NCBI GenBank assembly: GCA_002284915.1
Contig: CP015606.1
Coordinates: forward strand, 372,001 to 436,000
Length of the DNA: 64,000 bases
Source: Actinobacteria bacterium IMCC26077
GTDB taxonomy: Bacteria > Actinomycetota > Actinomycetes > Nanopelagicales > Nanopelagicaceae
Direction of reading: 5' to 3'
Each line of letters begins with the position of its first letter. The first letter of the stretch is position 1. Under the pieces are notes generated by a model. That model was given only the letters and a program-made list of their open reading frames with translations. It ran no database searches and was not told where the DNA came from. This document shows positions 14,745-37,256 of this stretch, piece by piece. Position numbers and translations under genes: made by a program.

Positions 14745-15527
14745 ATGCGAAACAGTTCTTTCCCTGTTCAAGGAGATGGTGTCATTGTCACTGGAGCGGC
14801 GCGCGGGATTGGTGCGGCGACGGTAGCAAATCTGGTCGCACAAGGAATTCACGTTATTGCGGCAGATAGTAATGGTGAGCTGCTTCAAGAGACGTTGAAG
14901 AAAATCGATCCATCAGGCGCGCTCACCGTCGCAGTCACTGCAGACGTCACAAGCGAAGCAGAGTGCCAAAAGATTGCCAACGCCGCTGCCGCTCGAGGTG
15001 TCCGCATCAAAGGTCTGGTCAACAACGCAGCGGTAGGCGCATTTAACATGAGCGTTGAAAAAACTAGTTATGACGAATGGCAGCGAATCATCTCGATCAA
15101 TCTGACGAGTATCTACCTGATGTCTAAGTATGCGTTGCCACTAATTCGAAGCGCCGGTGGTGGTGCAGTCATCAACATTTCATCGATTCATGCTTTTGCA
15201 ACATCTACAGCGGTAGCTCCCTATGCCGCTGCAAAGGGCGGCGTGCTTGCTCTTACTCGCACGATGGCCCTTGATCTTGCGCCAGATAATATTCGTGTGG
15301 TCTCCATTCACCCCGGTGCAACTAATACCGCGATGCTTCAAGACCATGCCGATCGGGAAGGCAAGACCGTTGCTGAATTGGGCTTTCCGGCTAGTGATAA
15401 TGCGATTGGTCGAATCGCTGAACCCGAGGAAGTTGCCGATGTCATCGCTTTCGCGCTCTCTCGGGGTGCGAGCTTTATTACTGGTTCTTCCATTACGCCC
15501 GATGGCGGCATACTCGCGAAGTTCTGA
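14745..15527 (+). CDS. SDR family oxidoreductase, divergent from IclR gene
   Basis: This 260-residue short-chain dehydrogenase has TGAARGIGAAT (near residue 12), VNNAAVG, NISSIHAF with the catalytic Ser, YAAAKGG with Tyr and Lys, and the terminal SSITPDGGI. GAGGAG lies about a dozen bases upstream of the ATG. Its position divergent from the IclR regulator is that of a regulated catabolic gene. In deoxysugar pathways SDRs oxidise the free sugar at C1 or the keto-deoxy acid at C4; which step this one serves is not visible. Confidence 0.86.
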   Translation: MRNSSFPVQGDGVIVTGAARGIGAATVANLVAQGIHVIAADSNGELLQETLKKIDPSGALTVAVTADVTSEAECQKIANAAAARGVRIKGLVNNAAVGAFNMSVEKTSYDEWQRIISINLTSIYLMSKYALPLIRSAGGGAVINISSIHAFATSTAVAPYAAAKGGVLALTRTMALDLAPDNIRVVSIHPGATNTAMLQDHADREGKTVAELGFPASDNAIGRIAEPEEVADVIAFALSRGASFITGSSITPDGGILAKF

Positions 15528-15851: not shown

Positions 15852-16049
15852 ATGAGCACATCTGGATCCCAGCCTGATTCCCAGCCTGATTCCCAGCGGG
15901 AGAAATTTCTAGAAGCCTTAGCGAAGAAAAAGGGCAAAGGGGCCAATCCAGGAAAAGGTGGCGCGAACTCTGGGCCCAAGATTTCTGGAGCGCAACAACG
16001 CGGAGGAATTTCACGTCAGAACGTGCAACGTAAATCTGGCGGCGCGTAA
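15852..16049 (+). CDS. Small basic DUF5302-like protein
   Basis: A 65-residue hydrophilic protein. It has a Ser/Gln-rich start with a repeated SQPD unit, a short helix (REKFLEALAKKKGK), a Gly/Lys-rich middle and a terminal QRKSGGA. This order resembles the actinobacterial DUF5302 family, whose members end in RRKSG; the match is by eye. The function is unknown. A TACTCT -10-like hexamer (15840-15845) lies only six bases before the ATG and no Shine-Dalgarno sequence is present, so translation from a leaderless mRNA is likely. It is convergent with the aminotransferase gene, with two bases between them. Confidence 0.65.
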   Translation: MSTSGSQPDSQPDSQREKFLEALAKKKGKGANPGKGGANSGPKISGAQQRGGISRQNVQRKSGGA

Positions 16050-27632: not shown

Positions 27633-27705
27633 GGGCCTTTAGCTCAGTCGGTAGAGCAACGGACTTTTAATCCGTGGGTCGTCGGTTCGATCCCGACAGG
27701 GCCCA
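27633..27705 (+). tRNA. tRNA-Lys (TTT)
   Basis: The 73-nt cloverleaf has acceptor GGGCCTT with AGGGCCC plus discriminator A, D arm AGCTCAGTCGG, anticodon loop CTTTTAA giving TTT, and T arm CGGTTCGATCCCG. It lies upstream of the convergently oriented toxin-antitoxin-like pair. Confidence 0.95.
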
Positions 27706-27729
27706 CAGCGATAGAGTATTTAAGATTTT

Positions 27730-28056
27730 TCACGAACTTTTTGCGAGGAACTCCTCGACAGCTTGTCGGATGAGAGCAGAAGGTGTCTCACCGCGAGCTT
27801 GGGCAGCTGCCTCTAATTTCTCTTTAAGAGGCGCAGGTACACGCGCCTTGATCTCGGGGGAGTGCACTGTGGGTGCAGTCAGTGAAGGACGCCCAACGTA
27901 AGGGCCATGTTCTTCGATCTCTTTGACCATCGCATCGATACGAGCGTTGGTGTAGCGCACGCCGTTCTGGTCGAGGAAAACTTCTTTATCGAAATCAACA
28001 TCTGGACCTTCAATATATTTTGAACTTCGCGCCTGAGCCGCAGATCTACGCTTCAT
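27730..28056 (-). CDS. Putative antitoxin with ribbon-helix-helix-like C terminus
   Basis: From ATG 28056, preceded by a strong AAGGAGG, the product has 108 residues. The last third (IKARVPAPLKEKLEAAAQ, then GETPSALIRQAVEEFL) has the strand-helix-helix pattern of CopG/Arc-type DNA-binding antitoxins. The N-terminal part is basic and then acidic, which would suit toxin wrapping, although the usual order in such proteins varies. It overlaps the upstream toxin-like gene by eleven bases. Confidence 0.65.
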   Translation of the reverse strand: MKRRSAAQARSSKYIEGPDVDFDKEVFLDQNGVRYTNARIDAMVKEIEEHGPYVGRPSLTAPTVHSPEIKARVPAPLKEKLEAAAQARGETPSALIRQAVEEFLAKSS

Positions 28057-28309
28057 TCTTTTTCCTCCTTCTATTGAAAGCTCCTGGCATAACATGAATT
28101 ACAAGAATTACCGTCACGTAGTCGATCGCGATAACCTCTAATTCACGTCCTCTTTCGTCGATTCCTAGCCACAGCAGTTTTGAAGTTCCCTCATCGTCGA
28201 ACTTTTTAGGTTCGTATTTATCCATTACATATCGAGCGCTTGTTTTCCCGATGCGGTGCTTGCGCGCCGATTGGGCAAAGCGCCGAAGCGGTAATTCTGG
28301 AGACATCAT
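28046..28309 (-). CDS. Putative toxin, BrnT/DUF4258-like small protein
   Basis: The 87-residue basic protein contains SARKHRIGKTSARYVMD, LLWLGIDERGRELEVIAID and VIHVMPGAFNRRRKK. This resembles actinobacterial small proteins of the pattern ARKHGI...G.DR.G..LE...VI.HAM, usually annotated as toxins of BrnT- or DUF4258-like pairs; the match is by eye. ATG 28309 is preferred over GTG 28321. A perfect palindrome lies immediately upstream. The toxin gene comes first and overlaps the antitoxin, as in brnTA and higBA modules. An RNase role is only a guess. Confidence 0.6.
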   Translation of the reverse strand: MMSPELPLRRFAQSARKHRIGKTSARYVMDKYEPKKFDDEGTSKLLWLGIDERGRELEVIAIDYVTVILVIHVMPGAFNRRRKKNEA

Positions 28310-28310
28310 A

Positions 28311-28325
28311 TTATGTGCCACATAA
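28311..28325. promoter_or_regulatory. Palindromic operator-like site before the toxin-antitoxin pair
   Basis: TTATGTGCCACATAA is a perfect 7-bp palindrome around one central base, ending one base before the toxin ATG on the minus strand. Position and symmetry fit autoregulation by an antitoxin with a ribbon-helix-helix fold. If GTG 28321 were the true start, the site would lie inside the gene, which argues for ATG 28309. Confidence 0.5.
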
Positions 28326-28805: not shown

Positions 28806-30323
28806 ATGGCGCGTAACAAGAAGCAAACGGCATCCGCCGCTCCCACAACATGGAGCGTTGCGGATTTTGGTGCTTTCTACACTGAGCACTCGTCCGAACT
28901 TCGCGCACATGCAGCACGCATTCTCAAAGACACTTCCCGCGCCGAAGAAGTTGTCCAAGATGCGCTGATCAAGTTCATGCTCGCTGCCCCTGAGTTGGAG
29001 TCAGCCGATCACGCCCTTGGTTATCTCCACCGCACCATCGAGAACCTTTGCGTCGATATCTTCCGCCTCGAAGGTCGTCGTCCAAACCTCGTACTCCTCG
29101 ATGATGCACAAGCAGAGGTCGAATCAACATGGGTAGATGCTGGTGACCACAGCGAAGTAATCGCACAAGCAGACGATGCCGCGATCATTCGCCAAGCACT
29201 TGCAATGCTCTCTCCCGCCGAGCGCACCGCGCTTGTGATGTGGGAAATGGATGGCCGCACCACAGAAGAGATTGCAGCAGAGCTCAACATCAAGGAGAGC
29301 GCTGTGCGCCACACCCTCTCTCGCGCTCGTGCATCACTTCGTCGCGTTCTCACCGAGATTGTCATCGACGAAGATCGTGGCCTCACTGCACTCGACATGC
29401 TCTCAACGACATACAAGCGCGCTGGCGAACTCGCGAAGAAGTCTTCGCGCGTTGCCCTCTCGCTCGTTCTTGTTCTCGCAGCATTCCTTGGCTTCAACTC
29501 CCTCACCGGAAATGAAGGAAATAACGGCTCCGATTCACGCGTTGTCGCAGAAGGCCCAGCAAACCCAGCAACACCAGCCCTCGGTGGAAACAGCAATAAC
29601 AGCAACACCAACGACAGCGCCAACACAGCAACTCCTTCACCATCAGCGAGCGCAAGCGAATCAGCCGCAGCTGACACAACAGCAGAAGAAGTCACAGCCG
29701 AAGATAACGCTGCAATCGACGAGGCAGCATCCATCGACCTTAACTCTTCCGCGAAGGCATTCTCGAAGTCGATCACTGGCGTGAAGGAATCCCTCGCGCT
29801 CGCCGGTCCTTCTGCCTTCCCAGGCGTCGATGCCAACGGACTTCCAAATGGTTTCACCATTAACGATTCTGGTGACTATGCAGGTAACGCTGTCCTTAAG
29901 AATTTCGGCGATCCAACTCGCATTGGTTCCAAGACCATCACCGAGTCGATCTTCGCCACTAACGATTCGAAGAATGTAAATATCATTCTCGATCAATTCG
30001 TCACTTTCACCGGAACTGTGCTGCAGTATTCGGTGGTTCCTACTGTCCGTATCAATGGGGTATGGCAAGACCTTCTTGTCATCTCAACAAATACCCGCGT
30101 TGAGACACAGGCAGATGGAACGAAGTTGATCATCGCCACCATGTTTATTGATCCTGCGAAGACTGGCGCGAACAGCGTTAAGGCTCCAGCATCAGGTCGC
30201 GATGCCGATCGCATTCCTGCGATCGTGACCGTTCGACTTCACACCACACCAATGGGTCAGACCATCATCGGCCAAGCCGTCCAGGTCCTCGATCCATTTA
30301 TTAACGCGGGAGGTGCGGTCTAA
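28806..30323 (+). CDS. Membrane-anchored ECF-type sigma factor with extracytoplasmic domain
   Basis: The first ~190 of 505 residues are an ECF sigma factor. Region 2 covers about 20-92 (FYTEHSSELRAHAARILKD, ILKDTSRAEEVVQDALIKF, LGYLHRTIENLCVDIFR). Region 4 covers about 125-185 (LSPAERTALVMWEMDGRTTE, then IAAELNIKESAVRHTLSRAR). Residues 214-234 form one strongly hydrophobic helix, preceded by KK and followed by a 75-residue Asn/Ser/Thr/Pro/Ala-rich linker and a ~190-residue beta-rich domain (311-505). Region 4 would thus be inside and the C terminus outside. No separate anti-sigma gene follows; an S-layer-like gene does. Direct sensing of the envelope by the sigma factor is inferred. AGGGG lies upstream of the ATG, at a somewhat long distance. 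Confidence 0.88.
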   Translation: MARNKKQTASAAPTTWSVADFGAFYTEHSSELRAHAARILKDTSRAEEVVQDALIKFMLAAPELESADHALGYLHRTIENLCVDIFRLEGRRPNLVLLDDAQAEVESTWVDAGDHSEVIAQADDAAIIRQALAMLSPAERTALVMWEMDGRTTEEIAAELNIKESAVRHTLSRARASLRRVLTEIVIDEDRGLTALDMLSTTYKRAGELAKKSSRVALSLVLVLAAFLGFNSLTGNEGNNGSDSRVVAEGPANPATPALGGNSNNSNTNDSANTATPSPSASASESAAADTTAEEVTAEDNAAIDEAASIDLNSSAKAFSKSITGVKESLALAGPSAFPGVDANGLPNGFTINDSGDYAGNAVLKNFGDPTRIGSKTITESIFATNDSKNVNIILDQFVTFTGTVLQYSVVPTVRINGVWQDLLVISTNTRVETQADGTKLIIATMFIDPAKTGANSVKAPASGRDADRIPAIVTVRLHTTPMGQTIIGQAVQVLDPFINAGGAV

Positions 30324-30360
30324 TGGCCCACCGTCCTAATCAGGTTTCCATACCGAATCC

Positions 30361-30387
30361 GGAATTCGGTGTGGATTTTGATGCGTC
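30361..30387 (+). promoter_or_regulatory. Candidate ECF-type promoter of the first S-layer-like gene
   Basis: GGAATT (30361-30366) and CGTC (30384-30387) are separated by 17 bases, close to the general ECF pattern of a GGAA-type -35 and a CGTC-type -10. The -35 lies inside an inverted repeat (ACCGAAT 30352-30358 / ATTCGGT 30364-30370). Predicted transcription would start near 30395, some 30 bases before the leader hairpin. Recognition by the sigma factor encoded just upstream is an inference. Confidence 0.4.
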
Positions 30388-30420
30388 AGCACGTGCGATG
30401 CATCAATCGGCGTCAAAGGG

Positions 30421-30505
30421 GTCTCTCATGGTTCATGAGAAGGCCTTTTCGATGCCAGCCGTCGCGAGGAAATCCCTTGCGGCGACTATGTTCGAAAGGA
30501 ACACA
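30421..30505 (+). promoter_or_regulatory. Conserved structured 5' leader, copy 1
   Basis: A perfect hairpin TCTCATG-GTT-CATGAGA (30424-30440) is followed by AGGCCTTTTCG, a GCCAGCCGT box, a second weak stem with GCGAC, and TTCGAAAGGAA as ribosome-binding site before ATG 30506. The same order and nearly the same bases occur before the second S-layer-like gene (37172-37256). Sequences further upstream differ between the two genes. It could control translation or mRNA stability. Confidence 0.6.
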
Positions 30506-33007
30506 ATGTTAAAAACTCTCAAGCGCAAGATCGCGCTTGTTGCAGTAGCAGGGTTGGGCTTTGGAGTTATCTCTACAGTTCCAGCTTTTGCTGCAGCCAC
30601 CGTTCCAACAGCGACTGTAGGTTATGTTGGGCGTATCGGTCTCGATGCTGATGCAAGTGGTGCAGCTGATACGAAATACACACTTGCTACAACTACTATG
30701 ACTGATGACGCTGGAGTTGATGACACAATCGCTCTTGCATTAACCTCAGGTCCAGCCGGTGGTGCTCTCACTGTTATCGATATTGGTGCCTGTGCCTGGA
30801 GCGCAGGGAATGTCGTAACCGTAGGCGGCGCTGAAATTACATTCCAAGAAACTGACTCAGACGGTGCTGGTGCAGATTGTGGAGCAACCATTGGTGCGAA
30901 TCCAACAATCACTGGACTAGCTAACCTTCCAGGTGTATATAAGTTACGCATCGGTGGTGCAGCTGCCGGCGTGACTGCAACCATTACTGTCGGAACTGCT
31001 CCTACCACTCTTACCTTCGACAAAACTGCTTACACAGGAGCTCCTGGAGTTTCACTAAACGTAGTTGCGACTCCAAAGGATTCCGCCGGTCGTACAACCT
31101 TGCTATCAGGAACTGAAGCAGTTGCACTTACTTCCTCCGATGCCACAGTAACCATCGATGCATTAGCCGGGAGCGGTCGACTAGTAGCTACCGGCGTGAA
31201 TGCGGCTGCAAACGGCGTAGTAGCACAGACAGCTGCTACAGGTGCATTCACACTTCCAATCATTGACTCGACAATTGGAACAGCTACTCTCACTTTTGAC
31301 TCTACTGCGGGTCTAATCGTTAGTGGCGCAGCAGTTTTGGCTCAAACGACCGCAAAAGTTACAGTAATTGCAGCCTCGTTGACTGAAATCACCTCAGCAA
31401 AGATCACGAATACAGGAACTATCGCTGGAACTGCTCTTACTACTGCCGTTGGCGAAGTTAAGAAGGTAAAGGCGCCAACAGATGGTGTGTTTACCCTCAC
31501 CGGAACTGTCGGCGGTCTAACTCCAAGCTCGACAAAAGTGATTCGAATCGAACAAACCGGTTTAACAACTCCAGCAAATGCGTCGACGATAGTGGTCACG
31601 GCAGATGACGCCGGTGTTGCACCAATCTCAATATCAATCACAGGCGCGAGTGATACCGATGTTATTCGATTTGGTGTTGATGGTAACGCTTCTGGTGCAT
31701 TCAATGATGCAGCAGGAGATGTTTACGCAACACTAACTTTTGAAGCTTCGCTCTTCACAATTGCTGGTGGTACCACAACTACCGTTCCATCATTCGCAAC
31801 CTCGGCAACACTGAGCACACTTGCAGCAACTGGTGCAAGTGCCTCAGTTTCAGTCACAGTTGCTGATCAATTTGGAAATCCAGGAGCTGCATATTTGTTC
31901 CGAGCCACCTCAGATGACACGGTTGCTCGCACTGTTTCGGCTCTCACTGGTTTAGACGGCAAGGCATCACTCACACTTGCTGCTCCAACTGATGCAACCG
32001 ATACTTCAGTTGTTTGGACTATAGCTCTGCTTGCACAGGACCTTGCAACACCGGTCCGCATTGCGACTGGAACAAACAATGGAACCCTGACTATCAATTA
32101 CACAACTGCAGGTAAGGCAGACTCCATCGTCTTAACAGGAGCAGGTACCACTGTCACATCTAAGACAGTTCCTTATGATGGAGTTGTAAGCGATGAAGAC
32201 ACCACGATGACAGCTACTGTATATCAAGGTGGTTCAGCAATTACCGGTGCTGTTGTAACGGTAACTGCGCCAGCCGGTTGCTTCGTGGCATCTGCTGATC
32301 CAACCGCCACAAACCCATTGTTGAGCACAAATAAGGCAACATTGACTACCACTAGTGGTACAGCTGTCTTCATGTGGTGCAACAAGACCGGAACGCAGAC
32401 TTTCACCTTTGAAAGTAATGGCGTTACAAAGACTCAAGCAGTGAAATATGTAACCGCTACTGCAGGTGCGCGTGATATCTCACTCACAACTAAAGATGCT
32501 TCTGTAACAGCGACTGTTAAGGATCTTTTCGGTAATGGAGTTTCAGGTGCGAGCGTAATTTTCACTCGCGTTGGGAATGCCGTATTTGCTGGTGGATCTA
32601 CTGTCATCACAGTTCCAACAGCTGCTGACGGAACCGCTGAAGCGATTCTTCAAGCACTAGGCACAGGTGGAAAAGTAACGGTTACTGGTACCCATTCAGG
32701 CAACCAAGCAGCTAACGCGGCAGATGCTCCTGCCGTAGGTGCTTTAGCCGCCGTAGCAAGTGCAAGCGTTGACGCCACAGTTTCGGCAACAACGGGAGCA
32801 ACTGCAACTGATGCTGCGGTCACTGCAGTCAAGGCTGACGTCAAGGCTGTCTCTGACACCGTAGCAACTCTCTCCAAGGCTGTAACAACAATCCAGTCCT
32901 CGGTCACAGAGTTGACCTCTTCCTTCTCAGCACAGATCAAGAGCCTTTCCAGCGCGATCGCAAAGATCAGCCGGGCAATTGCTGCGCTCAGCAAGAAGAT
33001 CAAGTAA
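30506..33007 (+). CDS. S-layer-like surface protein 1
   Basis: ATG 30506 with AAAGGA upstream begins an 833-residue protein; an open frame runs further upstream but is not conserved in the paralogue. The signal peptide (MLKTLKRKIALVAVAGLGFG, cleavage near AFA-AA) is followed by a long Ala/Thr/Val/Ser/Gly-rich beta-type region with few Cys (pairs near CAW/DCG and GCF/WCN) and Ig-like segments (VSVTVADQFGNPG, ARDISLTTKDASVTATVKD, FGNGVSGASVIFTR). The last ~60 residues are a coiled coil (VSDTVATLSKAVTTIQSSV and onward) almost identical to that of the paralogue at 34157. Composition and size fit a paracrystalline or abundant surface protein. It directly follows the sigma gene. Confidence 0.8.
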   Translation: MLKTLKRKIALVAVAGLGFGVISTVPAFAAATVPTATVGYVGRIGLDADASGAADTKYTLATTTMTDDAGVDDTIALALTSGPAGGALTVIDIGACAWSAGNVVTVGGAEITFQETDSDGAGADCGATIGANPTITGLANLPGVYKLRIGGAAAGVTATITVGTAPTTLTFDKTAYTGAPGVSLNVVATPKDSAGRTTLLSGTEAVALTSSDATVTIDALAGSGRLVATGVNAAANGVVAQTAATGAFTLPIIDSTIGTATLTFDSTAGLIVSGAAVLAQTTAKVTVIAASLTEITSAKITNTGTIAGTALTTAVGEVKKVKAPTDGVFTLTGTVGGLTPSSTKVIRIEQTGLTTPANASTIVVTADDAGVAPISISITGASDTDVIRFGVDGNASGAFNDAAGDVYATLTFEASLFTIAGGTTTTVPSFATSATLSTLAATGASASVSVTVADQFGNPGAAYLFRATSDDTVARTVSALTGLDGKASLTLAAPTDATDTSVVWTIALLAQDLATPVRIATGTNNGTLTINYTTAGKADSIVLTGAGTTVTSKTVPYDGVVSDEDTTMTATVYQGGSAITGAVVTVTAPAGCFVASADPTATNPLLSTNKATLTTTSGTAVFMWCNKTGTQTFTFESNGVTKTQAVKYVTATAGARDISLTTKDASVTATVKDLFGNGVSGASVIFTRVGNAVFAGGSTVITVPTAADGTAEAILQALGTGGKVTVTGTHSGNQAANAADAPAVGALAAVASASVDATVSATTGATATDAAVTAVKADVKAVSDTVATLSKAVTTIQSSVTELTSSFSAQIKSLSSAIAKISRAIAALSKKIK
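32840..32886 (+). repeat. 47-bp perfect inverted repeat, left copy
   Basis: These 47 bases, coding for part of the C-terminal coiled coil of surface protein 1, recur exactly in inverted orientation at 34278-34324 in the second surface gene. They form the core of a ~180-bp inverted repeat of about 90% identity that brackets the recombinase gene. Confidence 0.9.
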
Positions 33008-33051
33008 TACAAGTAGTTAGTGAGTAATCACTAAACACTGCTAGGTAAGTT

Positions 33052-33102
33052 CCTAAGGGCGGTTTCCTAATCCGCGAGATGCGGAGGCCGCCCTTAGGTT
33101 TT
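33052..33102 (+). terminator. Strong terminator of S-layer-like gene 1
   Basis: An 11-bp stem (CCTAAGGGCGG 33052-33062 with CCGCCCTTAGG 33088-33098) encloses a smaller CCGC/GCGG hairpin and is followed by TTTTA. It lies 45 bases after the stop of the surface gene and before the recombinase gene, so the recombinase probably has its own promoter. Confidence 0.8.
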
Positions 33103-33166
33103 ACCTTGGATGTCCGATTTGTAACGAAAGAGTGAAATATCCGAAACGGAGAAAAACGCAAGATTT

Positions 33167-34072
33167 ATGAGCGAAACTTTTTGGAATTCAGAGGAGATGT
33201 CGGGAATAAGCGACAACCGACTCTTGCGCGCAGATTTTGCGCAGGTAACTTTTGATTTCCCAGAGTTAGCGCTCATAGACGTTGTACGAAGAAAGGAATC
33301 AGAGAGATCTGAACTGAACATGAATCTTCACACACTCGCGGGTGTGATCATTCCGTTCTTGCCTATTACAGAGAAAACTCGATACACCTACACCTGGTGC
33401 TATAAACGCCATTTTGATGGCGAGCTGGGTAGTACCGATGTCAACGAAATATCTCGACAAGATATTGAACGAATTATTTCCCCGCTCCCCAAACAATCTG
33501 GCTATCAAGCCCTCATGGTCATCAAGACGCTCTTTCGAGAGGCTCACGAACGTGGGTGGGTCGATATCAACCCAACGAAGGGCATTAAAGCTCCGAAGAT
33601 AAGAACTGGTCACTCACCTTTCCTCACATGGGAAGAAGTGCGCGATGGTTTCTTTGGTAATTACGACAACCACATCCGATTCCTAGCGCTTCATGGTTTG
33701 CGCTGGGGTGAGGCAACGGCGCTCACTAAAGATGATATTCACGATGGGTTAGTGCACATCAATCAATCGGTGCATGGCGCAACAAAAACACAGTCGGGTG
33801 TACGAACCGTTCCTTATTTGGGATATTTCGAAACTTTCCCAGCAACGCGAAAACCGTTGGCAAAAGTGTTGAAGCCGTATGGAGTGAATATCCATTCGTT
33901 GCGAAAAACATATGCCTATTTACTGAAAACTAACGGAGTTCATGTGACAACGGCACAGAAGTTATTGGGCCATGCATCTCCGATGGTGACGTTATCGATT
34001 TATACCAAGGTACTTGACCAAGAGACCTTGGAGACTGGCGCGAAGATCAGCCGATCACTTGGTTTGTTGTAG
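33167..34072 (+). CDS. Tyrosine recombinase/integrase
   Basis: This 301-residue protein has an N-terminal SAM-like DNA-binding part (about 55-145; TEKTRYTYTWCYKRHF, HERGWVDINPTKGIKAPK). The catalytic domain holds all active residues: Arg179 in LHGLRWGEA, Lys207 in GATKTQSGVR, His243 and Arg246 in HSLRKTYA, His269 in LLGHASP and Tyr279 in SIYTKV. The gene lies between two inverted surface-protein genes and within their inverted 3' repeats. No other phage or element gene is present. A role in site-specific inversion at this locus is inferred. GGAG lies about 16 bases before the ATG, rather far; a later start (MNLHTLAGV) is possible. Confidence 0.88.
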   Translation: MSETFWNSEEMSGISDNRLLRADFAQVTFDFPELALIDVVRRKESERSELNMNLHTLAGVIIPFLPITEKTRYTYTWCYKRHFDGELGSTDVNEISRQDIERIISPLPKQSGYQALMVIKTLFREAHERGWVDINPTKGIKAPKIRTGHSPFLTWEEVRDGFFGNYDNHIRFLALHGLRWGEATALTKDDIHDGLVHINQSVHGATKTQSGVRTVPYLGYFETFPATRKPLAKVLKPYGVNIHSLRKTYAYLLKTNGVHVTTAQKLLGHASPMVTLSIYTKVLDQETLETGAKISRSLGLL

Positions 34073-34085
34073 TTAGGAGGGAAAT

Positions 34086-34125
34086 GCCAAAGGGGCGCCC
34101 TCCTTTTCGGAGAACGCCCCCTGGC
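34086..34125. terminator. Bidirectional terminator between recombinase and S-layer-like gene 2
   Basis: GGGGCG (34092-34097) pairs with CGCCCC (34115-34120), with an inner CTCC/GGAG stem and outer GCC/GGC pairs. It lies between two convergent genes. On the minus strand the hairpin is followed by TTTGGCATTT. Confidence 0.7.
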
Positions 34126-34156
34126 GTAATTGCAGTATCTAGTTACGAATAACTAT

Positions 34157-37100
34157 TTACTTCATCTTCTTGCTGAGCGCAGCAATTGCCTTGCTGATCT
34201 TTTCGATCGCAGCAGAGAGGCTCTTGATCTGAGCGGAGAAGGAAGAAGTCAACTCTGTGACCGAGGACTGAATGGTGGTTACAGCCTTGGAGAGAGTTGC
34301 TACGGTGTCAGAGACAGCCTTGACATCAGCCTTGACCACATCAAGTGCTGGGTTAGCAGCAGCTGCGGCAGAGGTGACGGTGAGGGCTGCAGTAGCTGAC
34401 TTTGTGCTTGCGGCTGTGAAGATTGAGCCGTTTGCAGTTAGGTCAGTTGCAAGGAAGTTGGTTGTTGCTCCGCCATCGGTACCTGCAACAGTGAGCGTTC
34501 CTGCTCCTGTTTCAACACCATTTGACGTTACTTCGAAGACAACCTGTCCACTTGCATCTGTGTTTACAGCTGCTTGGGTACGTCCGCCACCTGTGAAGCG
34601 ACCAGCGGTACCGGTGATAGCACCAGTAAGCGCTACACCAGCGACTGGGTTGCCCCAGACATCTTTAACAGTTGCGATGATTTGATCAACGTTTCCGTTA
34701 AGAGCCGATGTTGCCTTGCCAAGTGTGAGAACACGGCCAGTTGCAGCAGCAGCAGGTGCATCGAAACCGGAGTTTGCGATCGCGAGGAACTCGCCCTTAA
34801 CTGTTGCAGTACCAGCGGAGAATGTTACGGAGCTCGTTCCAACCTTTGAACCAGTGACGTAGAAGGTCGCGATGCCTTGGGCATTTGTTGCGATCTTAAG
34901 ATCAGTGGTTGCGCTGTTGAATGCTGAGTAGAGAACGTTGGCAGCAGCTGCGCTGTTGACAAGCACTCCATCTCCTGGGGCTGCAGTAACAACTACACCA
35001 GCAGCTCCGGCGCCAGAATCATCAGTGACCTTGACGGTCATGACGGTGTGGGTACCAGCAGTTGCGATGTCCTTTGTGGTCACTGTGGTTGCAGTTCCAG
35101 CAGACTTATCTGCATCAGCTGTGCTGATGTCTCCATCTGCATCAATCTTCACGCGGAAGATTGTCGTTGTGGTGTTAGCACCACCGGTGATAGTGATTGC
35201 AGCAGGAGCACCAGTAGCTGTAACGGTAAAGCTAACAGTATTGGTGGTTGCCATTGCTACGTTGTTGTAGCTAAGACCGGTGAAGGTATAGGTATAAGTA
35301 CCAGCCTTCGAACCAAGAACTACGTTGAAGGTAGTCTTTCCATCAGCACCAACGGTCTGAGTAGCAGCAGTTTGAGCTGTTGCTCCAACTGGAACTACCG
35401 TGTTGGTCATAGTGACAGTTGCACCAGGTGATGCCACGCTGAACTGATCAGCAGTGGTTGCTACAACTGGAATTGTTGCACTTGCAGCAGCAAAGGTGTT
35501 TGTACCGTTAGCTGGTGAAGTGGTGACATCTGCAGTTGCAGTTGCCCATGTAACAGTCGCGATGGTGGTGGAAGTAACATTTCCGGCGCCATCAGCATCT
35601 ACTGCAATGCTGTAGATGTCAGCGTTGTTAACTGTTCCTGCAATAGTCATCACGATGGTGATTTTTCCTGCAGCATCAGCGACAGGTGTTGCAGCATCAA
35701 CAGAACATGAGGAGTTATTTCCTGCATCTGCATCTTCAGTACAGCTAACCGCTGCAACCTTATTCGCATCGAGACCGGTTACCACAGCGTTTACCTTGGT
35801 AACAGTCAAACCAGCAGTGTAAGCAGGAGCAGTGCCAGCAACGAAGCCGGTTCCGTTTCCAGCAGTGATCTTCGAGCTAGCAAGTGCAGCCTTTGTTGCA
35901 CCATAACCGGTGACAGTTACTGCAACAGAAGCAGTGATGGACGCTGAGCTTCCAGCAGTAACAGTGAAGGTAAGGGTGTCAGTACCAGCAGTTGCAGCAG
36001 CAGTGTAGGTAAATGCGTTACCAGTTCCTGCGGCACCTGTGGCTGCTGAAGAAGCGATTGTGCTTGCAGCAGATGAGCTAGAAGTAGGCGTTACACCTTC
36101 AACTACTGCTCCGGTGCTGTCCTTGAGTTCCCACTTGTAATCTGTCGCTCCGACAGTTCCGCTTGCAGGAAGTGAGATAGCAGTCACTGCTGAGCTATCG
36201 GACTGCTTCAAGATACGTAGCGTTCCCGCTAGACCTGAAGTAGATGCAGCCCAACGGTAGGTTGCTGAGGTGGTTCCAAAAGCTGCAAGACCAGAAATGA
36301 TCGTTGCATTTAGCTTATAGGTCACTCCAGCAGTTGTATTTCCGCCACCGCAACCAGTTGTTCCTGGGTTGGTGTTATCGATTGCAACGGTGTAACCAGT
36401 GAAAACTCCAGTTGCAGCGTCATATGCTTGATCAGCAGCAGCCGAGTCAGCAGGAGTTGCAGGAGCACAAACGCCAGAAGCTACTGTGTCAAGTGAGTAA
36501 GTGATTGCTTCTGATCCACGAAGGAATGTGGAACGACCTGAAGAATCCTTCACCGAAGCAACAAACGACGAATCTGTTGCAGCATTAGCAATCTGGGTAC
36601 GACCAACCCGATCAAATGAGACGGTTGATGGCGCGCCAACGTTGTAAACGGTGATTGCTCCGATGGAGAATCCATCAGTTGCAAAAGAGGATGCAGCGGA
36701 AGAATCGGCACAAACGTTCCAAGTTCCAGCTGAAAGTGATGCTGTTGTGATTGTCAATGTATTTGCACCAGCTGCTGCTGTGACAACAACGATTTTTCCA
36801 GCGGTGTAAGTAGTGACTGTTGCAGCATTAGCAATAGCAGTTCCGGCATCACCGGTTAGGGTTGCCATTCCCGCTAACATTGTTGCATCTGCAGCATTAC
36901 AAGCAGCAGTTGTCACGGCAATGTGATATGCAGTATCGACTGCAGCACCTTCCGCGATTTTGAGGGTTTGAACGCCCGCACGAGCTTTAGCTGTGTCGGC
37001 TGTGTCATTTGCTCCAGCTGTAACAACAAGGGTGCTGTTCGCTTGAGTGAGGTTTAAGTTCGCCACAACTGTGTCTGCGGCTGCAGCGTTAGCTGGAACT

Positions 37101-37171
37101 GTGGACACAAGTCCAAAGCCCAACCCTGCCACTGCAACAAGAGCGATCTTGCTCTTGAGAGTTTTTAACAT
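34157..37171 (-). CDS. S-layer-like surface protein 2
   Basis: The 1004-residue protein has a signal peptide nearly identical to that of surface protein 1 (MLKTLKSKIALVAVAGLGFG, cleavage near ANA-AA). It has a long Ala/Thr/Gly/Ser-rich beta-type region with repeated Ig-like units, a few Cys (CNAAD, CADSS, CTEDADAGNNSSCS) and the same C-terminal coiled coil ending in KKMK. Central parts of the two proteins do not align well by eye. GAAAGGAAA precedes the ATG and a conserved hairpin leader lies upstream. It is convergent with the recombinase gene. An abundant outer surface layer is the likely role, possibly as an alternative to protein 1. Confidence 0.8.
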   Translation of the reverse strand: MLKTLKSKIALVAVAGLGFGLVSTVPANAAAADTVVANLNLTQANSTLVVTAGANDTADTAKARAGVQTLKIAEGAAVDTAYHIAVTTAACNAADATMLAGMATLTGDAGTAIANAATVTTYTAGKIVVVTAAAGANTLTITTASLSAGTWNVCADSSAASSFATDGFSIGAITVYNVGAPSTVSFDRVGRTQIANAATDSSFVASVKDSSGRSTFLRGSEAITYSLDTVASGVCAPATPADSAAADQAYDAATGVFTGYTVAIDNTNPGTTGCGGGNTTAGVTYKLNATIISGLAAFGTTSATYRWAASTSGLAGTLRILKQSDSSAVTAISLPASGTVGATDYKWELKDSTGAVVEGVTPTSSSSAASTIASSAATGAAGTGNAFTYTAAATAGTDTLTFTVTAGSSASITASVAVTVTGYGATKAALASSKITAGNGTGFVAGTAPAYTAGLTVTKVNAVVTGLDANKVAAVSCTEDADAGNNSSCSVDAATPVADAAGKITIVMTIAGTVNNADIYSIAVDADGAGNVTSTTIATVTWATATADVTTSPANGTNTFAAASATIPVVATTADQFSVASPGATVTMTNTVVPVGATAQTAATQTVGADGKTTFNVVLGSKAGTYTYTFTGLSYNNVAMATTNTVSFTVTATGAPAAITITGGANTTTTIFRVKIDADGDISTADADKSAGTATTVTTKDIATAGTHTVMTVKVTDDSGAGAAGVVVTAAPGDGVLVNSAAAANVLYSAFNSATTDLKIATNAQGIATFYVTGSKVGTSSVTFSAGTATVKGEFLAIANSGFDAPAAAATGRVLTLGKATSALNGNVDQIIATVKDVWGNPVAGVALTGAITGTAGRFTGGGRTQAAVNTDASGQVVFEVTSNGVETGAGTLTVAGTDGGATTNFLATDLTANGSIFTAASTKSATAALTVTSAAAAANPALDVVKADVKAVSDTVATLSKAVTTIQSSVTELTSSFSAQIKSLSAAIEKISKAIAALSKKMK
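34278..34324 (-). repeat. 47-bp perfect inverted repeat, right copy
   Basis: Exact reverse complement of 32840-32886, inside the coiled-coil coding part of surface gene 2. Flanking bases on both sides are also similar; a further 23-bp exact match follows after a few differences. Confidence 0.9.
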
Positions 37172-37256
37172 TTGTTTCCTTTCGAAACTAGTCGCTCCCA
37201 GGAATCTCCCAGGAACGGCTGGCGAAAACAGGCCGTCTCATGAACCATGAGACGGC
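37172..37256 (-). promoter_or_regulatory. Conserved structured 5' leader, copy 2
   Basis: On the minus strand a perfect 11-bp hairpin (GCCGTCTCATG-GTT-CATGAGACGGC, 37256 to 37232) is followed by CTGTTTTCG, a GCCAGCCGT box, GGAGCGACTA and TTCGAAAGGAAAC before the ATG. Order and spacing match copy 1 (30421-30505). The remaining 73 bases up to the next gene are AT-rich and may hold the promoter; I see no clear -35/-10 pair there. Confidence 0.6.

Follow-up and report, generated by a model that had tools for sequence, protein, structure and literature searches.

We analysed a stretch of 64,000 nucleotides (the window; positions 372,001 to 436,000 of contig CP015606.1) that is part of the single-contig, complete 1.55-Mb genome of Actinobacteria bacterium IMCC26077. 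At its centre a sigma factor gene, surface gene 1 and a tyrosine recombinase gene follow one another on the plus strand, and surface gene 2 points back towards them from the minus strand. The features of this locus, numbered from the first letter of the window, are:

28806–30323, plus strand: ECF-type sigma factor gene with a long C-terminal extension (Pfam matches to Sigma70_r2/r4), which marks the expression site.
30343–30375, plus strand: leader hairpin A, loop TCCGGA (covarying consensus fold), with no equivalent upstream of gene 2.
30378–30406, plus strand: leader hairpin B, loop AGCACGTGC, at the expression site only (covarying consensus fold).
30424–30440, plus strand: proposed crossover site P, TCTCAT-GGTTC-ATGAGA (two genome copies; position-fixed motif in family leaders).
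30457–30487, plus strand: leader hairpin D of gene 1, predicted to travel with the gene (covarying stem, model R1).
30506–33007, plus strand: surface gene 1, 833 aa, now in the expression site (ORF, signal peptide; ends in common with gene 2).
32798–33007, plus strand: 3' shared block of gene 1, encoding the coiled-coil end (86% identical to the inverted copy at 34157–34366).
33052–33098, plus strand: inverted repeat I7 in the gap between gene 1 and the recombinase gene, likely a transcription terminator.
33320–34072, plus strand: tyrosine recombinase, 250 aa from its likely start (PF00589, catalytic residues, tree, AF2 model).
34157–37171, minus strand: surface gene 2, 1004 aa, proposed silent copy (ORF; leader without hairpins A and B).
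34157–34366, minus strand: 3' shared block of gene 2, the inverted copy of the gene 1 block.
37190–37220, minus strand: leader hairpin D of gene 2 (covarying stem).
37236–37252, minus strand: proposed crossover site S, an inverted copy of the same 17 bp (exact genome match; family leader motif).

A preliminary description of this DNA had noted two convergent surface genes with a complete tyrosine recombinase between them, and the ORFs, the Pfam matches and the catalytic residues R, K, HxxR, H and Y were all found. It had also stated, correctly, that the two genes have a leader hairpin, ribosome-binding site, signal peptide and C-terminal coiled coil in common and differ in their central parts, the cores giving no mutual match at E<1e-5. 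Its estimate that the shared ends are about 90% identical or better was too high, as we measured 83–92% (83% over 145 nt and 92% over 26 nt at the 5' end, 86% over 210 nt at the 3' end), and the perfectly shared 5' block comprises 17 bp, at 30424–30440 and 37236–37252. The signal peptide and the coiled-coil end are the recognisable features of both surface proteins; matches to Big_1/Invasin_D3 were weak and below the cut-off, a search of the PDB returned no relative, and a search of viral contigs returned no relative of surface gene 2. Both proteins are S-layer candidates, for which the formation of a crystalline array at the surface is putative.

A tRNA-Lys gene (27633–27706) lies shortly before the sigma gene, and the interval ahead of the latter also holds, on the minus strand, a small ribbon-helix-helix gene with an upstream small ORF, a toxin-antitoxin-like pair (27730–28321). 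The sigma factor itself carries a hydrophobic segment at about residues 212–235 and a long C-terminal part, which is long in its relatives too, and these two features suggest that it is membrane-anchored and might sense the state of the envelope.

The longest ORF of the recombinase spans 33167–34072, and its start probably lies at 33320, giving a protein of 250 aa, as in its relatives. The catalytic-domain profile PF00589 matches this protein (E=5.5e-10), residues R128, K156, H192, R195, H218 and Y228 are invariant in 18 aligned recombinase sequences, and its AF2 model (pLDDT 89) matches Tn1549 Int and lambda Int; by sequence and predicted structure, it is a member of the tyrosine recombinase (phage integrase) family. 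By sequence comparison it is not close to the integrases of phages or plasmids: the best matches in viral contigs are mostly 25–35% identical, versus 45–69% inside the family, and phage and plasmid records, among the matches listed, reach about 24–30%. When contigs were queried with an alignment, the named relatives found were freshwater actinobacterial genomes; a query of the same contigs with the single sequence returned no relatives of the recombinase.

Upstream of the surface genes lies a leader that we followed across 296 genomes of the family using a covariance model built on its last hairpin (D) and the gene start. At E<=0.001 the model found 105 leaders in 89 genomes, of which 101 had enough upstream sequence to be read for the site described below. 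The leader is usually present as a single copy behind the sigma gene. Copies on the sigma side carry two extra hairpins, A and B, upstream of the site, and copies away from the sigma gene have neither. In the consensus fold of 14 sigma-side leaders, 18 of the 23 base pairs in A and B show changes of both partners in one or more sequences, and this covariation supports a structured RNA or, alternatively, a palindromic DNA element. The leader of the window (30343–30487), which folds with z=-8, appears to be a structured RNA not described before, its hairpins covarying and its loops TCCGGA and AGCACGTGC conserved; Rfam gave no match for it, and the weak Rfam matches in relatives were below the cut-off and outside the leader. 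One sequence before gene 1, GGAATT-17-CGTC, was considered as an ECF promoter and rejected, being the loop of hairpin A and the stem of hairpin B. A scan of the region with the sigma-70 consensus yielded fewer promoter-like sites than shuffled sequence and identified no promoter.

Most genomes with this leader have a simple locus. In the 19 single-gene loci examined, a sigma orthologue stands directly upstream of the surface gene in every case (19/19), glycan genes mostly follow, and the stretch holds no recombinase. In most of them (L067, 5829–7523, and its equivalents) an O-antigen-ligase-type gene (PF04932) and sugar-nucleotide genes come next after the surface gene, which suggests that the coat protein is glycosylated. 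One genome, G250, has duplicated the locus without a recombinase, and there the arrangement is tandem (sigma-surface-sigma-surface), each copy with its own hairpin B.

Relatives of the recombinase occur in a minority of the 296 genomes, and where they stand beside surface genes the layout of the locus recurs in further genera of the family. Genomes G070 and G022 have a surface gene, the recombinase, an inverted surface gene and the sigma gene, and G214 also has the surface-locus layout. Variants include a locus with two recombinases (G202), one with two recombinases and three surface genes (G239), one in which the recombinase lies outside the inverted pair (G053), and two genomes whose surface copies are on separate contigs (G150 and G273). 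The recombinase points in the same direction as the sigma-side gene in the window and in G214, where the sigma gene is off the contig and the sigma-side copy was told by its leader, and in the opposite direction in G070 and G022. Both directions are thus found, as expected if the segment can flip, though the genomes compared are of different species.

In a phylogenetic tree, all surface-locus recombinases form one clade, split with a support of 100/100 from a sister clade whose members are found away from surface genes and next to island-like genes. This sister clade, together with the second surface copy of G150 on another contig, is what one would expect if the recombinase and the second gene were a mobile cassette with an island integrase that had inserted by the surface gene, with no regulated switching at all. 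Such an origin is very improbable. The two clades are fully separated, a repeat search found no direct-repeat att sites at the locus of the window, and the candidate sites are inverted, which argues for inversion rather than excision. The surface clade is associated with duplicated leaders: at least two leader copies are present in 9 of the 10 genomes with a surface-clade recombinase versus 5 of the 79 without (p=3e-8), and a silent-type leader in 9/10 versus 6/79 (p=7e-8), counted only among genomes with leaders, which are related by descent, so that these p-values overstate independence. In the six genomes that have a silent-type leader without a recombinase, the latter was not found in assemblies that are fragmented.

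The 17-bp core TCTCATGGTTCATGAGA stands ahead of each surface gene of the window in mutually inverted orientation and reads as a near-palindrome, CTCAT-N5-ATGAG, whose spacer is asymmetric. A scan of the 1.55-Mb genome found exactly two copies and no further match at up to 2 mismatches. Across the family, CTCAT-N5-ATGAG is present with at most 1 mismatch in 36 of the 101 readable leaders; in the remaining 65 there are 3 mismatches or more, and no leader has 2. Its offset from hairpin D is nearly constant (-28 to -33, with one leader at -39). Of 97 leaders scored for the loop sequence of hairpin B, 80 have this hairpin, and 16 of the 17 that lack it contain the site (Fisher p=1.2e-7, which overstates independence, the genomes being kin). 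The asymmetric N5 spacer is the same in partner copies and differs between lineages (GGTTC in the window, TGCTA in G053, GACTT in G022 and G070, GACAT in G214, G239 and G273), a pattern that is expected of a crossover site. On the minus strand at 37256–37232, the site of the silent copy folds into a hairpin of 11 pairs with a T-rich tail behind it and scans as terminator-like. A second inverted motif pair, CTCAT-GGTGA-ATGAG, was seen in G239 (L060, G239:C2:8000-26897) at 14905–14919 and 15998–16012, bracketing a gene for a protein of 345 aa that lies between two convergent surface genes, at their 3' ends; two recombinases are present in G239, and the spacer GGTGA also occurs in G210:C47 next to its recombinase.

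Partner copies compared around the site are 28–32% identical over the outer 60 nt and 93–100% over the inner 60 nt in G053, G070 and G022. The sharp edge is best seen in these three genomes because gaps shift the register in the window, where the ungapped identity inside the site is 42% over 60 nt, and because exact matching in G214 runs 14 nt outward of the site. The shared 5' and 3' blocks would be long enough for RecA-type exchange, and leaders without the site also have a hairpin, of different sequence, at the equivalent position; one could accordingly suppose that ordinary homologous recombination or gene conversion acts at the shared ends, the palindrome being merely an RNA hairpin and the recombinase incidental. 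We consider this very unlikely, if marginally less so than a mobile cassette, as the fixed CTCAT..ATGAG with its partner-matched spacer is confined to the site class, the distribution of the motif is bimodal, identity between copies ends at the site and the recombinase clade is tightly associated. Lone sites without a recombinase do exist, in G028, G072 and G183, and the motif alone is therefore no proof of an active switch.

Taken together, these data lead us to propose, with a probability of roughly three in four, that the locus is a site-specific inversion switch for a major surface protein, in which the recombinase swaps the gene that occupies a single expression site. The expression site would consist of the sigma gene and leader hairpins A and B and would lie outside the invertible segment, and each surface gene would bring its own crossover palindrome, leader hairpin D, ribosome-binding site and signal peptide. 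The segment's own recombinase is predicted to pair the two inverted sites and to exchange strands within the asymmetric 5-nt spacer, flipping about 6.8 kb, so that hairpins A and B would then precede gene 2 instead of gene 1, which would move to the silent position. In the present orientation gene 2 would be silent, with expression directed from the sigma side. The crossover site is placed in the third leader hairpin (C), and since it is a near-palindrome there, the recombined leader would fold into the same four hairpins; a leader inverted in silico indeed keeps hairpins A–D.

The central idea of the preliminary description, that inversion between the 5' ends by an internal recombinase swaps the gene behind the sigma gene, thus gains support from comparative genomics, namely from the recurrent inverted pairs, the single recombinase clade, the position-fixed palindrome with its partner-identical spacer and the one expression-site leader. 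Some of its details need revision. It had inversion run across the 5' repeats; crossover at the 5' ends is supported, but the proposed site is the 17-bp core and not the whole repeat. It also had gene 2 move behind the sigma gene and its promoter, of which the sigma side stands, but no promoter was identified and it is the structured hairpins that mark the copy proposed as active.

Some assemblies carry possible signs of movement. Contig C8 of G150 starts exactly at the first base of an 11-nt core that it has in common with the other copy, and as 11 nt are too short alone to break an assembler, both left flanks may coexist in the G150 population, a suggestion from this one case, in which the sigma-side flank was not seen. 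Contig ends of G202 and G269 had been taken up as a similar sign and were discarded, as identical ends of 149 nt explain them as an assembler word-length effect. By sequence similarity, families of surface genes change position between species: the single expressed genes of G051 and G066 are the best matches to the silent gene of G214, and a silent gene of G239 is the best match to the expression-site gene of G214.

Other loci show decay. Recombinase fragments of about 100–130 aa, one with a stop, are present in G050 (L042), G071 (L043) and G015 (L044), and lone sites persist in G028 and G072; relics of the system are clearly present. The remnants of G050 and G071 sit beside the ribokinase neighbourhood where G273 keeps a silent surface copy, and it looks as if the switch had decayed in these two genomes. 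The locus of the window could itself be such a relic, once inverted and now fixed in orientation, with gene 2 a silent or separately expressed leftover; its leaders are 83% identical apart from the core, unlike the 93–100% of G070, G022 and G053, and switching could therefore be rare or over. We hold this to be unlikely, as the recombinase is full length with all its catalytic residues, both copies of the 17-bp core are perfect and both surface ORFs are open.

Inversion switches of surface genes are known from other phyla. In Campylobacter fetus sap, inversion between conserved 5' ends brings alternative S-layer genes behind a single expression site, the repeats being long and the exchange RecA-dependent, unlike the short site and locus-borne tyrosine recombinase found here. 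In Lactobacillus acidophilus, two opposed S-layer genes, slpA and slpB, one expressed and one silent, are swapped by inversion; the present locus belongs to another phylum, and the sigma gene, the structured leader and the recombinase in the segment are features of its own. Clostridioides difficile cwpV is an on/off switch of one gene, unlike the choice between two coding sequences proposed here. The silent slpB of L. acidophilus is mentioned in PMC6015585, and CwpV has been described as a phase-variable cell wall protein under the control of DNA inversion (PMC2784873).

The sap and slpA/slpB systems, named as models in the preliminary description, do share the inversion design, but a closer match, by likeness of locus design, appears to be Mycoplasma agalactiae vpma/Xer1, with which we group M. 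bovis vsp and M. pulmonis vsa as the closest systems. In vpma, silent genes are brought behind a single promoter by site-specific inversion, the recombination sites lie in the 5' untranslated region, signal peptides are conserved and the locus includes a tyrosine recombinase gene (PMC2268961). As there, our surface genes have a conserved 5' leader and signal peptide with a variable remainder, and the locus holds a tyrosine recombinase gene. In place of the vpma sites we find an identical inverted 17-bp motif at both leaders, with a putative role in recombination, and in place of the single promoter, hairpins A and B at one copy only. Unlike vpma, the present system usually has two genes, resides in an actinobacterium and has as its expression site a dedicated sigma gene together with a structured, covarying leader; its crossover site would lie inside a leader hairpin, and its inversion is a prediction from sequence. 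A literature search, itself incomplete, so that an earlier description may exist elsewhere, returned no paper joining Nanopelagicales with S-layer, and the sole paper joining Planktophila with S-layer was a general essay.

The proposed switch predicts exact short junction sequences that can be sought in existing lake long-read data. If the segment is inverted, the expression-site flank would be joined to gene 2 as ...GGCGTCAAAGGGGTC-TCTCATGGTTCATGAGA-CGGCCTGTTTTCGCC... (core-adjacent flank bases provisional; reference 30405–30423), and the silent flank to gene 1 as ...TTTGCCTGCCG-TCTCATGGTTCATGAGA-AGGCCTTTTCGATGCC....

In lakes these bacteria rank with the most abundant; their genomes are very small, and phage predation on them is believed to be heavy (PMC10202952). 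The benefit of a switch would probably be escape from phages or grazers. Beyond the single locus, we think it rather probable that streamlined freshwater actinobacteria possess a dedicated tyrosine recombinase family with a crossover site that also serves as one hairpin of the structured leader RNA, that inversion thereby exchanges the coat and leaves the leader structure intact at a sigma-linked expression site, and that gains or losses of this system have recurred in the family. If the proposed reading is true, a single clone would have in the coat switch an explicit means of diversifying its surface, and the locus would also provide a recombinase/site family and a structured leader that are both new.
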